Shown: positions 3,778 to 6,914 of the stretch, piece after piece
Numbering within the stretch: position 1 is the stretch's first letter
How the letters are laid out: each line of letters starts with the position of its first letter
Source: Carnobacterium inhibens subsp. inhibens DSM 13024
GTDB lineage: Bacteria > Bacillota > Bacilli > Lactobacillales > Carnobacteriaceae
Assembly (NCBI RefSeq): GCF_000746825.1
Contig: NZ_JQIV01000006.1
Coordinates: 806,001-870,000, forward strand
DNA length: 64,000 nt
Direction of reading: 5' to 3'
Translations under genes and position numbers: made by a program
The notes under the pieces: model-generated
The model's input: the letters and a program-made list of their open reading frames with translations, nothing else
What the model was told of the DNA's origin: nothing
The model's database searches: none

Positions 3778-3894
3778 CTAAGCTGCAAACCACATCATAA
3801 TGCCAAGTAGCCCAAGCAATACCATCACTATAGCTCCAATTATCCCTACCCAAATTATCAACCTTAACATTGTCCGTTCAAATTTGTTATTCAT
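3778..3894 (-). CDS. 38-residue single-span membrane protein (DUF4044-like)
   Basis: A 38-codon frame: it starts MNNKFERTMLRLIIW, continues with one long hydrophobic stretch rich in Gly/Val/Leu (about residues 12-36) and ends WFAA then TAG. The RBS GCTAAAGGAGAAG lies just before the ATG. Its ATG overlaps the TGA of the 63-residue gene upstream (ATGA), so the two are probably translationally coupled. The short basic N-terminus followed by one helix resembles DUF4044 small membrane proteins of Lactobacillales, whose function is unknown. The family link rests on pattern, not on a search. Confidence 0.65.
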   Translation of the reverse strand: MNNKFERTMLRLIIWVGIIGAIVMVLLGLLGIMMWFAA

Positions 3895-4082
3895 AATTTC
3901 TTCTCCTTTAGCTCTTTCTTATTTATGTAATCTTTTGTAAACATAACTCCCATTAAAAAAATAGGAAAACCAAAGGGCCGTAGAGGATTTAAAAGCGAAT
4001 AATGATTGCTTAAACTATCAAATGCAAAAATTATTACCATCCATATAAAAAGTGCTAGGAATTTCTTTTTTCTTATTGTCAT
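3891..4082 (-). CDS. Small two-span membrane protein, unknown function
   Basis: A 63-residue protein with a basic start (MTIRKKKF), a hydrophobic helix at about 8-24, a turn containing NPLRPFGFP, a second helix at about 38-50 and a charged Lys/Glu-rich tail. I do not recognise a family. It has a good RBS (AGGAGAG, 7 bases before the ATG). Its stop overlaps the start of the 38-residue membrane gene. Both probably belong to a small operon of membrane proteins in this accessory patch. The coding call rests on the RBS and the coupling. Confidence 0.6.
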   Translation of the reverse strand: MTIRKKKFLALFIWMVIIFAFDSLSNHYSLLNPLRPFGFPIFLMGVMFTKDYINKKELKEKKL

Positions 4083-4178
4083 ACGTCTACTCTCCTAGAT
4101 AAATATGTTTATCCTGCTATCTTAAAAAACATTCCATCTTTATGTAAAAGTACCTTAACTCTATTTATTTCTAACTGT

Positions 4179-4565
4179 TTATTGTAATATAAGGCTATTT
4201 AACACAGCATCTTCGCCATTAACTAATACGATCAAATATTCATGCTGATATTCTGGATCAACTTCAACTTTATAATATAGCGGTGTAGACTTATCTTCTG
4301 TTTCTTCAAGTAGAGCTGTATCTGTAAATGAAATTGTTAATTTATCTCCATCTTCATATATTTCAGCTTTAGCTATTGAACTAACCGAATTAAAAATAGC
4401 ATAAGTTAGTTCCGAAACTTCACTCACCACAGTTACCTCTCCTGGCCGATCCGAAATTGGTTCGATGGATGACACAGGATCAATTTCTTGAATATTTGTG
4501 TCTTTTTTAATTCCACAGCCCATCAAAATAACTAAACAAAAAGGAATAATTAGCATTTTTTTCAT
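4179..4565 (-). CDS. Putative lipoprotein, unknown function
   Basis: A 128-residue protein beginning MKKMLIIPFCLVILMGC, a signal peptide with lipobox LMGC, so the mature chain should be lipid-linked at Cys17 outside the membrane. The frame extends further upstream, but I place the start at 4565 because AAGGAG lies 7 bases ahead of that ATG. The mature part is acidic, with a Pro/Ser/Val-rich linker followed by a domain of alternating strands (VTVVSEVSELTYAIF, KLTISFTD, YYKVEVD, YLIVLVNG). No known family was recognised. It lies 22 bases after the 51-residue membrane protein gene and probably shares its transcript. Confidence 0.72.
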   Translation of the reverse strand: MKKMLIIPFCLVILMGCGIKKDTNIQEIDPVSSIEPISDRPGEVTVVSEVSELTYAIFNSVSSIAKAEIYEDGDKLTISFTDTALLEETEDKSTPLYYKVEVDPEYQHEYLIVLVNGEDAVLNSLILQ

Positions 4566-4587
4566 TTTTTTCTCCTTAAGAAATCTT

Positions 4588-4743
4588 TTATTTTTCAAAA
4601 TCAGATTTTCGAAGCAAACAGTATCCAATAAAAATTAGTACATACCCTAAGGCAATTTTCTGATGTACTATTGCAAAAATCGCAATGCCAAAAACGACTG
4701 TAGATAATAATTGATAAGTAGTAGATTTCGTAATTTTCTTCAT
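4588..4743 (-). CDS. Small two-span membrane protein, unknown function
   Basis: A 51-residue protein starting MKKITKSTTYQLL with two hydrophobic helices (about 10-25 and 31-44) and the charged tail RKSDFEK. I chose the ATG at 4743 because GGGGGAG lies 6 bases before it; the frame is open for nine more codons upstream. It is the first gene of a two-gene unit with the lipoprotein. About 100 bases upstream is the palindrome GCAACTAGTAGTTGC, whose close relative precedes the gene at 6170 on the other strand. Function unknown. Confidence 0.6.
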   Translation of the reverse strand: MKKITKSTTYQLLSTVVFGIAIFAIVHQKIALGYVLIFIGYCLLRKSDFEK

Positions 4744-4812
4744 CTTAAACTCCCCCATAGAACATTCCATAAAAAGCTTATTACTCTTTAAATTATCTAT
4801 GAAAAGGCTCTT

Positions 4813-4858
4813 ATATGAAAGAACGTGCTAGTTTACATCGTAGCAACTAGTAGTTGCA
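4813..4858 (-). promoter_or_regulatory. Palindromic upstream element, copy 1
   Basis: Read on the minus strand this contains GCAACTACTAGTTGC (complement of 4843-4857, an odd palindrome), then GTTGCTA, TGTAAA and ACGTTCT. The plus-strand copy at 6029-6066 keeps the same words in the same order. Each copy points toward a small membrane protein gene 100-130 bases downstream. It looks like a shared operator with promoter. Confidence 0.5.
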
Positions 4859-5007
4859 TTACTATCATTATGGGGTTTATAGCTACTATTTTAAATTTGT
4901 TCTTCATAAAATCGAAAAACTATTCCTTTGAATGATAGGCCATTACTTTTTCCATTTCATGAACCTCTGCTCATTTAGTTTATTCAAAAATATGGGGCTA
5001 AGTTTAT

Positions 5008-5619
5008 TTATAGTTTTTTATTTAATTCACTTAATTTACTTTGGATTTTTGTCATAATAACTAAATTATACACCGCAAGTACTAAAATAATTAGGTGAAA
5101 TCCTAAACGCATACAAGCAAATGGTAATTCAAATAAAAACTTCTTCAAAAATAAGCTACCCGATGTTTCCCACAAACCTGGAGTATAAAAAGCATCACGC
5201 CAATTAACAATAGAGATATCTATACTGTGGTTCACAATAAAGTAGAGTACAGTAAATACTACTGTTAAAGATAGGTATTGATTAAGTGCCCTACGATAAA
5301 AATGCCTCTCAGATGAGTTATCAGAAAAAAGACTTTCGTTATCAGTCGCGTTACTTTGCCAATAATACTTACCGCTCGTCCATGATCCACCAATTAATTT
5401 CCAATTAAATTCTTCGTGAAATTTTACATAGTCTTCAAACTTACTCTTACGTGGAAACTCCTGAAAGTCAATTTGATAATGTTTCGTAATGCTATCCTTT
5501 TTGCTAAAAGAAAAAACACCTAAAGCATTGACGTTTGTACATTCCCATCCCTTTAAGTCCATTTCTTTCAACCAATCCAATTCTTTTTCAATATCCAAAA
5601 ATATACGTATTTTTTTCAT
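5008..5619 (-). CDS. DUF2812 membrane protein, partner of PadR
   Basis: A 203-residue protein with a soluble N-terminal DUF2812 domain (MKKIRIFLDIEKELDWLKEM at 1-20, then the conserved GW and Y/F-rich strands ending near KYYWQS at about 90) and two C-terminal membrane helices at about 115-133 and 168-190. DUF2812 genes commonly sit next to PadR regulators, and this one follows padR by 13 bases with a strong RBS (AGGGAGGATAG). It probably works as a membrane sensor or as an anti-repressor of the PadR protein. That role is inferred from gene pairing; the family's biochemistry is not established. Confidence 0.8.
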   Translation of the reverse strand: MKKIRIFLDIEKELDWLKEMDLKGWECTNVNALGVFSFSKKDSITKHYQIDFQEFPRKSKFEDYVKFHEEFNWKLIGGSWTSGKYYWQSNATDNESLFSDNSSERHFYRRALNQYLSLTVVFTVLYFIVNHSIDISIVNWRDAFYTPGLWETSGSLFLKKFLFELPFACMRLGFHLIILVLAVYNLVIMTKIQSKLSELNKKL

Positions 5620-5632
5620 TTTTCTATCCTCC

Positions 5633-5929
5633 CTAATATAAGCGAATCATTTCCTCTAGTCGTTTTTTTTCAATTTCAAGAATTCCTAAACCATGTGGCG
5701 TAATAAGATAAATTTTACGTCTAGGATCTTCAGATGGATAAGGTTCGATCCAATCTTGTTTCACCAAATTATCTAAAGCACCATACAATGTTCCAGCAGC
5801 TATCCTCACATTGCCAGAACTCATCTCTTCTATTTTTTGCATAATAGCATACCCGTGTAGCGGTTCTCTTAACGCGAGTAATATAAGATGCATAGTTTCA
5901 CTTAATGGTAATAGCTTATGTCTTTTCAT
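5633..5929 (-). CDS. PadR family transcriptional regulator
   Basis: A 98-residue winged-helix protein of the PadR type. The motif HLILLALREPLHGYAIMQKIEEMSSG (split here as helix 1-2 region, 14-39) and AAGTLYGALDNLVKQDWIE (about 45-63, recognition helix) are clear, followed by the wing with RRKIYLITPHG. The C-terminal helix is short, so it should dimerise with the minimal PadR-s2 arrangement. It heads an operon with DUF2812. Its promoter is visible: TTGATA (complement of 5992-5997), a 17-base spacer, TATACT (complement of 5969-5974). Palindromes overlap both boxes, so autorepression is likely. Confidence 0.9.
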   Translation of the reverse strand: MKRHKLLPLSETMHLILLALREPLHGYAIMQKIEEMSSGNVRIAAGTLYGALDNLVKQDWIEPYPSEDPRRKIYLITPHGLGILEIEKKRLEEMIRLY

Positions 5930-5950
5930 TTTTCTACTCCTTCATATACA

Positions 5951-6019
5951 GTTCAACTGAATATGAATAGTATATATCGTCCGACTGTACATATCAACTA
6001 TATAGTTGAACGATATATA
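5951..6019 (-). promoter_or_regulatory. padR promoter with overlapping palindromic operators
   Basis: On the minus strand there is a -35 TTGATA (5992-5997) and -10 TATACT (5969-5974) with a 17-base spacer. The perfect palindrome CAACTATATAGTTG spans 5995-6008 over the -35 box. An outer inverted repeat TATATATCG (5971-5979) / CGATATATA (6011-6019) brackets the promoter, and GTTCAACT at 5951-5958 repeats the inner half-site. This is the expected layout of an autoregulated PadR gene. Confidence 0.65.
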
Positions 6020-6028
6020 ATAATTACC

Positions 6029-6078
6029 TGCAACCACTAGTTGCTAATTGTAAATGAATACGTTCTATTATTTTAGGT
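6029..6078 (+). promoter_or_regulatory. Palindromic upstream element, copy 2
   Basis: Contains GCAACCACTAGTTGC, then TTGCTA, TGTAAA and ACGTTCT, matching the minus-strand element at 4813-4858 word by word. It precedes the plus-strand gene at 6170. The two copies point outward from the padR-DUF2812 unit, suggesting common control of the flanking membrane protein genes. Confidence 0.5.
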
Positions 6079-6169
6079 AAAAATAAGAGATAATTAGCTT
6101 ATTCAAAAAATTGAAAAACTACTAATGTTATTTACCCACACAGCCTCAGAAGGAGGGAAATTCAAAAAG

Positions 6170-6427
6170 GTGGAAAATTATAAACGAAGAACTTTTTTTC
6201 TTACTCTTATCAACATCTATATTACATACATCTATTTATCCGGTAATTACGAGAGTGACGTCAATCCACTTATTTTTATTTTTGCAGTTGCAACAGGTCT
6301 TTATGATTTGAAGCAAAATAAAGAAGACTATCCTGATTTTTACTTATTTGTTAGATATTTTTTGCTATTCTTATTTTCTGTGGGATTAATCATCGATTTA
6401 ATAACCTTCGCTAAGATTATTCTTTAA
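6170..6427 (+). CDS. Small membrane protein, unknown function
   Basis: An 85-residue protein beginning VENYKRRTFFLTLIN with three likely helices (about 8-24, 29-44, 58-82) and a charged loop KQNKEDYPDF. I place the start at the GTG because AGAAGGAGGG lies at 6149-6157, though the spacing of 12-13 bases is long; an upstream in-frame ATG at 6125 lacks any RBS. I do not recognise a family. It follows the palindromic element copy 2 and may be coregulated with the 51-residue membrane protein on the other side of padR. Confidence 0.5.
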   Translation: MENYKRRTFFLTLINIYITYIYLSGNYESDVNPLIFIFAVATGLYDLKQNKEDYPDFYLFVRYFLLFLFSVGLIIDLITFAKIIL

Positions 6428-6518
6428 AGTGTCTTTCTTTAAACTTATACATATGACAAATAAGGATTAACGAATTGATTCATTATATACTAACTTTTAA
6501 AAAAACGGAGGTACACCT

Positions 6519-6914
6519 ATGAAAAAAAGACAACTTCTAAATCCTTTACTTGTTCTGCTCTTTCCTGCATTCACGATTGTTTTCATTCCCATGTTCATCA
6601 ACTATGCTTTAACTTTTACTGCTCGAACCTATAATATACAAGCATTTTGGTTCATTAGTTTAAGCTGGGTTTTAGTTGGTTTTGCTATGGCGATGATTGC
6701 TTATCGTTTAACGGTATACTCGGATAAATCAGATACATTTACCAAATGGATCTCGATTATCTGGACAGTGATATTAATTGTACTTTTGGCAGGTTTTCAC
6801 ATCGGATATAGCTATTCAATTTATGCAACTTTACATCTCTATGGCACTTTTTTTGTAGAGTTAACAACTGGATTCTACTTAAGTTTGACTGCTATCGTTC
6901 ATATTAGAAAATAA
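6519..6914 (+). CDS. Four-span membrane protein, unknown function
   Basis: A 131-residue protein with four predicted helices: about 9-30, 41-62, 76-94 and 103-127. The loop YSDKSDTFTKW between helices 2 and 3 carries most of the charge. There is a strong RBS (CGGAGGT, 7 bases before the ATG). No family was recognised and no catalytic motif is visible. It is the last gene of the accessory patch before the housekeeping block and has about 90 bases of upstream DNA, so it may have its own promoter (TATACT at 6487-6492). Confidence 0.6.
   Translation: MKKRQLLNPLLVLLFPAFTIVFIPMFINYALTFTARTYNIQAFWFISLSWVLVGFAMAMIAYRLTVYSDKSDTFTKWISIIWTVILIVLLAGFHIGYSYSIYATLHLYGTFFVELTTGFYLSLTAIVHIRK

Follow-up and report, generated by a model that had tools for sequence, protein, structure and literature searches.

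The window, a 64,000-nucleotide stretch of the Carnobacterium inhibens subsp. inhibens DSM 13024 genome (contig NZ_JQIV01000006.1, positions 806,001 to 870,000), contains between its positions 3778 and 6914 a cluster of small membrane protein genes on both sides of a padR-DUF2812 pair, together with two copies of a repeated element, A and B, that point outward from this pair. An earlier note on this DNA had read the cluster as a system centred on PadR-DUF2812. Our analysis suggests instead that the element is a real regulon element, most likely a promoter for envelope-defence genes under the control of an XRE (Cro/C1-type) regulator, which would act by activation and may be linked to bacteriocins.

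Two repeated elements and the genes behind them

Element A lies on the minus strand (4792-4857) and element B on the plus strand (6030-6094). Both start with a palindrome of the type GCAAC-N5-GTTGC, exact in the two copies, which reads GCAACTACTAGTTGC in element A (minus strand, 4843-4857) and GCAACCACTAGTTGC in element B (plus strand, 6030-6044). From the start of the palindrome, the order of parts is GCAACYACTAGTTGCTA, TGTAAA, a second half-site ending in GTTCT, a variable spacer and GATAAT, with TGTAAAC and a GTTCT half-site in element A and TGTAAA and an ACGTTCT half-site in element B. A -10-like AGATAAT ends both elements, its GATAAT (4797-4792 in A, 6089-6094 in B) standing 60 bases from the palindrome start in element A and 59 in element B. 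The earlier note had described the palindrome and the words GTTGCTA, TGTAAA and ACGTTCT in the same order at the two outward-pointing places, each ahead of a small membrane protein gene; all of these are present in both elements, and the genes in question encode proteins of 51 residues (at 4743, minus) and 85 residues (at 6170, plus). The repeated words are thus real, but the description was partial, since both copies extend to the -10-like box. Judged by their sequence, the two elements look like complete, homologous promoters heading both outward units.

A model made from 19 of the 25 aligned elements, with the window copies and four rows from the matching loci of genomes G004 and G005 excluded, was searched against the 64 kb and found element A with an expectation value (E) of 3.2e-12 and element B with E 6e-11; its next-best match (E 0.44) is the opposite strand of the same palindrome. 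In the 2.75-Mb genome, GCAACYACTAGTTGC has no exact match beyond the two window copies. The loose palindrome alone is not significant in the window (five matches with three mismatches, a number reached by 8 of 100 shuffles), and neither is a 16-base half-element pattern with two mismatches (eight matches, reached by 3 of 100 shuffles), so that short words alone are unfit as search queries.

The first gene behind element A (4588-4743, minus) encodes the 51-residue membrane protein, a member of a family present five times in this genome, and the second (4179-4565, minus) a 128-residue lipoprotein, to which the homologue behind the G005 element A is 62% identical. Behind element B, the 85-residue membrane protein (6170-6427, plus) is followed by a membrane protein of 131 residues (6519-6914, plus). 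Homologues of the former stand behind element B in G004 and G005 and begin at the residue matching its GTG start; the latter has 54% identical homologues in the same two genomes. Between 6940 and 7075, in the gap between the 131-residue gene and an RNA methyltransferase gene, we note several ACGAAAG/CTTTCGT words in both orientations.

On the element A side, the lipoprotein and a coupled pair of 63- and 38-residue membrane proteins had been proposed. The lipoprotein stands, as does the overlap of the two frames (3891-4082 and 3778-3894, both minus, sharing 3891-3894), but the 63-residue frame is weakly supported, with a single match in 17 other family genomes, at 28% identity with one stop and beside the 51-residue gene of G004, and the 38-residue frame has no homologue outside the window genome among the loci compared, where no genome-wide search was made. 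None of the small proteins of the window has a Pfam or NCBIfam match over the cut-off.

Spread and geometry of the element

A sequence model of the element, R1, applied at E<=1e-5, matches every genome of the genus (six) and, in the family as a whole, 15 out of 18, and the element was found in 18 of the 295 genomes sampled from the order. The window genome itself has at least 23 R1 matches at this threshold, which merge into at least 18 places once palindrome arms are joined, 12 of them on the large contig C6 and six on the smaller contigs C2, C3 and C5, which are probably plasmids. These counts are lower bounds, with at most 150 candidates scored per family genome and at most 16 per order genome. 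Occurrence at many unrelated genes had been named beforehand as an outcome that would speak against a common system; the genome-wide search does reveal many places, but many of the genes there are alike in kind.

The geometry of the element was analysed with a model restricted to the first 40 columns of the alignment, to avoid circularity, and with matches clustered at 85% identity. GATAAT, with at most one mismatch, occurs at offset 59 or 60 in 51 of 67 clustered matches, and at no other offset between 40 and 99 in more than five. Two flavours can be distinguished, GCGTTCTTTT with GATAAT mostly at offset 60 and GTGCGTTACTTT with GATAAT mostly at offset 59. Relative to the start implied by the -10 box, the palindrome is centred at about -65 and the second site at about -43, and there is no good -35 box.

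In a genome of another family, the element-bearing contig agrees with a 16,537-bp plasmid of Vagococcus intermedius in its length and in where the 51-residue gene lies. This 16.5-kb plasmid carries the element, an XRE gene and the 51-residue family together, and the three appear to have been transferred together independently. By eye, a tyrosine-recombinase-like gene of about 183 residues recurs near small-gene clusters (L088:7724-8275, L100:13282-13833, L101:6403-6954 and, in a shorter form, L084:5556-5978); it may help these clusters to move.

Genes headed by the element elsewhere

First genes of at most 170 residues with a hydrophobic segment make up 36 of the 66 first genes behind elements, as against 7 of 59 window genes identified by the same procedure (Fisher p 5e-7). 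The 66 were called with a simple caller behind 86 unique elements, a set that includes reverse palindrome arms and of which 20 had no first gene; the 59 background genes come from this window only and include the cluster's own. Other element-led genes encode lipoproteins and secreted proteins.

The 51-residue family is present in 12 of the 295 genomes, every one of them element-positive. Within the compared loci, 27 of its 31 genes have an upstream element at E<1e-5 and one at E 2.4e-5, while three have none, namely one at a contig end and two with a weak R1 match upstream; many of these 31 loci were selected for having an element, and four duplicate rows had been removed.

A few element-led genes resemble immunity genes. 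Genes of the Enterocin-A-immunity type (EntA_Immun) stand behind elements on contigs C2, C3 and C5, and immunity-like ATP-binding cassette (ABC) genes, below NCBIfam cut-offs, stand behind elements in G003, G004 and G056. One element-led ABC transporter is matched best, though in both cases below the cut-off, by the NCBIfam models of a lantibiotic-protection ATPase and of a MutG-type permease, and in G056 an element-led, lantibiotic-protection-like ABC operon adjoins the region of an aureocin-like peptide gene. The regulon most likely serves cell-envelope defence, with bacteriocin immunity as a leading candidate for its protective role. We also note the peptide gene itself, which encodes a 43-residue aureocin-like leaderless bacteriocin (L102:5970-6101, minus; PF11758) and has an ABC operon behind it.

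An XRE regulator as candidate reader of the element

Seven copies of the element (L088, L092, L100, L106, L107, L109 and L110) have on one side a gene for a small membrane protein or a lipoprotein and on the other a divergently oriented gene for an XRE protein of about 170 residues; at L109 the latter gene stands behind a 67-residue XRE gene. A DUF5626 gene adjoins the XRE gene in five of the seven. Thirteen of the 18 element genomes, and none of the 277 others, have a match of at least 130 bits to the C-terminal domain of this XRE protein; the cut-off was chosen after the scores were known.

The palindrome also recurs at XRE promoters well beyond these copies, and the wider XRE family offers a test of greater independence. 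We compared 80 XRE loci from named genomes (L219-L298), the best 80 of 570 confirmed relatives, obtained with search patterns that included the recognition helix. An exact GCAAC-N5-GTTGC lies within 200 bp upstream in 27 of the 80, and in 40 when one mismatch is allowed, against 0.01 and 0.26 expected per 80 loci by dinucleotide shuffling (200 rounds). The palindrome-bearing loci include Staphylococcus, Priestia, Lysinibacillus and gut Clostridia. Among 33 distinct XRE upstream regions, taken with a slightly looser pattern and the palindrome 80-125 bases before the start codon, 21 TATAAT-like boxes fall at offset 59 or 60 and at most two at any other offset. The palindrome is absent from all 11 other XRE-type genes in the compared loci. 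Found together at XRE promoters, the palindrome and the -10 geometry are features of this XRE subfamily, and the elements of the window resemble copies of its promoter that work in trans. The window cluster has no XRE gene of its own; there, XRE would act in trans, for example from C6:1570278, 1841492 or 1843466. More broadly, many SRQSISKWE-type XRE genes across Bacillota are preceded by GCAAC-N5-GTTGC and, at a constant distance from it, a -10-like box, possibly a general autoregulation code.

The structure model of XRE (mean predicted local distance difference test score, pLDDT, 77; predicted template modelling score 0.41) reveals a helix-turn-helix (HTH) domain, a helix at residues 58-110 and two helices, 114-125 and 133-159, in the hydrophobic part, followed by a well-conserved C-terminal tail, mostly WGTTTVEYLG. 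A Foldseek search of the PDB with this model returned nothing at E<=0.001, and its best hits were HTH domains; the nearest solved HTH relatives are ImmR of ICEBs1 (PDB 7t8i), DdrO, P22 c2 and SinR. The DUF5626 model is all-beta (mean pLDDT 80, residues 1-30 below 50), and its Foldseek matches at E<=0.001 are confined to three chains of Listeria lmo2686 (PDB 4k15; E 2e-4, template modelling score 0.44), a protein annotated as hypothetical that also matches DUF5626 in sequence (E 0.005). We infer that the XRE tail lies outside the cell and meets DUF5626 there.

Genes for 66-residue XRE proteins with the same HTH and no hydrophobic part occur divergent to 51-residue genes at L084:2268-2468 and similarly in L088, L180, L181 and L195; their products are possibly soluble competitors or degenerate copies.

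Proposed mechanism

Computation shows that the elements form a family of fixed geometry, that they head genes of a particular kind and that they are tied to the XRE subfamily. We propose that the element is the operator-promoter of a regulon controlled in trans, and that its reader would be the membrane-anchored XRE protein of about 170 residues, the gene for which lies at a distance from the cluster in the genome. Dimers of XRE would bind the GCAAC-N5-GTTGC palindrome at about -65 and a second, degenerate site at about -43, and would from there assist RNA polymerase at the fixed GATAAT box, in the manner of lambda cI at PRM. Through elements A and B, the operon of the 51-residue protein and the lipoprotein and that of the 85- and 131-residue proteins would come under XRE, together with at least 16 other places in the genome. 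We consider such a regulon, taken as a whole, to be probable; within it, XRE would bind and activate, a signal would be received and the gene products would have a protective role.

Several observations weigh against this proposal. Twelve of the 13 genomes with a strong XRE match belong to one family, and the co-occurrence is uncorrected for kinship. The strong match is missing from five of the 18 element genomes (no match in G008, G010 and G017, a weak one in G056 and G113), and three Trichococcus genomes have an XRE relative of about 128 bits and no element at E<=1e-5, although GCAACCAGTGGTTTACAT nevertheless lies upstream of the XRE gene in the loci examined. Half of the 80 XRE loci lack the palindrome even at one mismatch. 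Among 13 Carnobacteriaceae and Vagococcus XRE loci, nine have the palindrome pattern, five of them with the -10 box at the offset expected; of the remaining four, three contain a word resembling TGGTTTACAT and one contains neither. As to immunity, the window genes match no immunity family in Pfam or NCBIfam, and the immunity-like L089:366-662 and L093:4859-5823 (a DUF975/EntA pair) have no element directly upstream in the stretches compared.

The padR-DUF2812 pair and other explanations

Between the two elements lie the genes of a DUF2812 membrane protein (5008-5619, minus; PF11193) and a PadR regulator (5633-5929, minus; PF03551), which we regard as neighbours and not as members of the regulon. 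The padR promoter contains two palindromes on the minus strand, CAGTTCAACTG (5949-5959) and AACTATATAGTT (5996-6007), the latter touching the TTGATA-17-TATACT promoter of padR. They differ from the shared element and have matching counterparts at corresponding places upstream of padR in G004; putatively, they are likely PadR's own operator. A second padR-DUF2812 pair of this genome, with a DUF2812 protein 33% identical to that of the window, lies at C6:877471-878043 (L091:5930-6870), in an element-bearing region.

The earlier note had suggested that both outward units may form a PadR-DUF2812 membrane-stress system, which would imply that PadR binds the element. The pair does sit between both elements in the window and in G004, and the place of the second pair would fit as well. 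Comparison of four loci, namely the window, G005 and G002 (which have flanking genes in common with it) and G004 (a different setting), tells otherwise: element A occurs with the 51-residue gene at all four (in G002 the frame ends two residues early), element B with the 80/85- and 131-residue genes at three and the lipoprotein homologue at two, whereas padR-DUF2812 is present in the window and G004 and absent from the G005 locus, which has both elements, and the G002 locus, which has element A. Similarly, a DUF2812 homologue is found in only 7 of the 18 family genomes, against 15 with the element. The element thus neither travels with padR nor resembles PadR's own operator, and synteny and those different palindromes speak against PadR as its binder; on this sequence evidence, the pair appears to be a neighbour and not the common factor of the elements, and the PadR reading deserves hardly any credence. 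What survives is the link between the two outward units through the element, and a membrane-related response remains plausible from the small membrane and exported genes.

Other explanations keep the element and change its reader or its role. XRE might bind it as a repressor, the genes being on when binding is lost, for instance when the membrane or DUF5626 is disturbed. Cro/C1-type regulators are often repressors, and P22 c2, DdrO and SinR, among the nearest solved HTH relatives, are examples. However, upstream sites whose distance from the -10 box is fixed, together with the lack of a good -35 box, favour an activator touching polymerase, by analogy with lambda cI; with both sites upstream of the -35 region, repression seems to us unlikely. 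The half-sites also repeat with a period of about 22 bp, for which a LytTR/AgrA box was considered, bound as direct repeats by a LytTR-type response regulator (AgrA, CbnR or HdrR-like) as in bacteriocin quorum sensing: CbnR promoters of C. maltaromaticum have two 10-bp repeats with a 12-bp spacer (PMC1634752), and in LytTR systems 9-bp repeats, in most cases with 12 bp between them, lie upstream of -35 (PMC6193735). The strongest conserved unit is nevertheless a palindrome common to XRE promoters of distant families, and LytTR gene counts do not follow the element, with 5, 3 and 6 genes in the element-negative family genomes, one or two in most element genomes, six in G008 and none found in G013, which has 11 element matches at E<=0.1. 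This distribution speaks against the LytTR/AgrA box and leaves a LytTR regulator very improbable. An extracytoplasmic function (ECF) sigma promoter, considered from a CGT motif, was set aside by reasoning only. Finally, the elements might be what is left of a mobile repeat dispersed among intergenic regions, with no part in regulation: there are copies on three of the smaller contigs, frequently with a tyrosine recombinase gene nearby, and palindromes of in some cases about 60 bp. We find this scarcely believable, as conservation is focused on the operator and on a -10 box at fixed distance, with a variable spacer between them, and XRE promoters of distant families have the same geometry.

Relation to known systems and implications

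The proposed XRE regulon combines features known from several systems. At PRM, lambda cI has two operators separated by about two helical turns, of which the promoter-proximal one lies near -42, much like the two sites of the element. As with lambda cI at PRM and P22 c2-type systems, the regulator is an HTH_3 dimer with an autoregulated divergent promoter region; unlike them, XRE has a hydrophobic C-terminal domain and would serve many unlinked operons. ImmR of ICEBs1, DdrO and SinR resemble XRE in the HTH domain, but no listed match covers its C-terminal hydrophobic part, and their target genes differ.

CbnK-CbnR of Carnobacterium maltaromaticum likewise involves bacteriocin-related promoters with repeated boxes in a Carnobacterium, but it is described as a two-component system that responds to a peptide signal and uses direct repeats, with no XRE (PMC1634752). 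The Streptococcus LytTR systems pair a regulator with a membrane protein, autoactivate via repeats just upstream of -35 and control bacteriocin genes; they use a LytTR DNA-binding domain and a separate membrane inhibitor, whereas here the HTH and the hydrophobic part are in one protein (PMC6193735). The transmembrane transcription regulators ToxR, TcpP and CadC do unite a DNA-binding domain and a membrane segment in a single polypeptide, which often has a partner protein (PMC10269533); the terms XRE and HTH_3 are absent from the main text of that source. ToxR, TcpP and CadC differ from XRE in the class of their HTH. A description of the element was not found in the literature searched, in which coverage of subscription journals was mostly lacking.

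A wider picture, which we put forward tentatively and hold to be less than even in likelihood, is that the membrane-embedded XRE activator and its exported DUF5626 partner sense antimicrobial peptides at the cell surface and govern a set of small membrane proteins, encoded across the genome and in part on plasmids, that confer immunity to many bacteriocins. The window proteins of 51, 85 and 131 residues would then represent new families of immunity proteins, and GCAAC-N5-GTTGC would serve a large XRE subfamily throughout Bacillota as its common operator code.

In sum, the analysis puts forward a pairing of regulator and operator for a widespread XRE subfamily and unites dozens of orphan tiny-membrane-protein genes of lactic acid bacteria in a single regulon that can be tested. 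Should the role in bacteriocin defence prove true, the regulon would show how food and gut bacteria turn on cross-immunity, would point to new immunity proteins and would be relevant to the use of bacteriocins in food.

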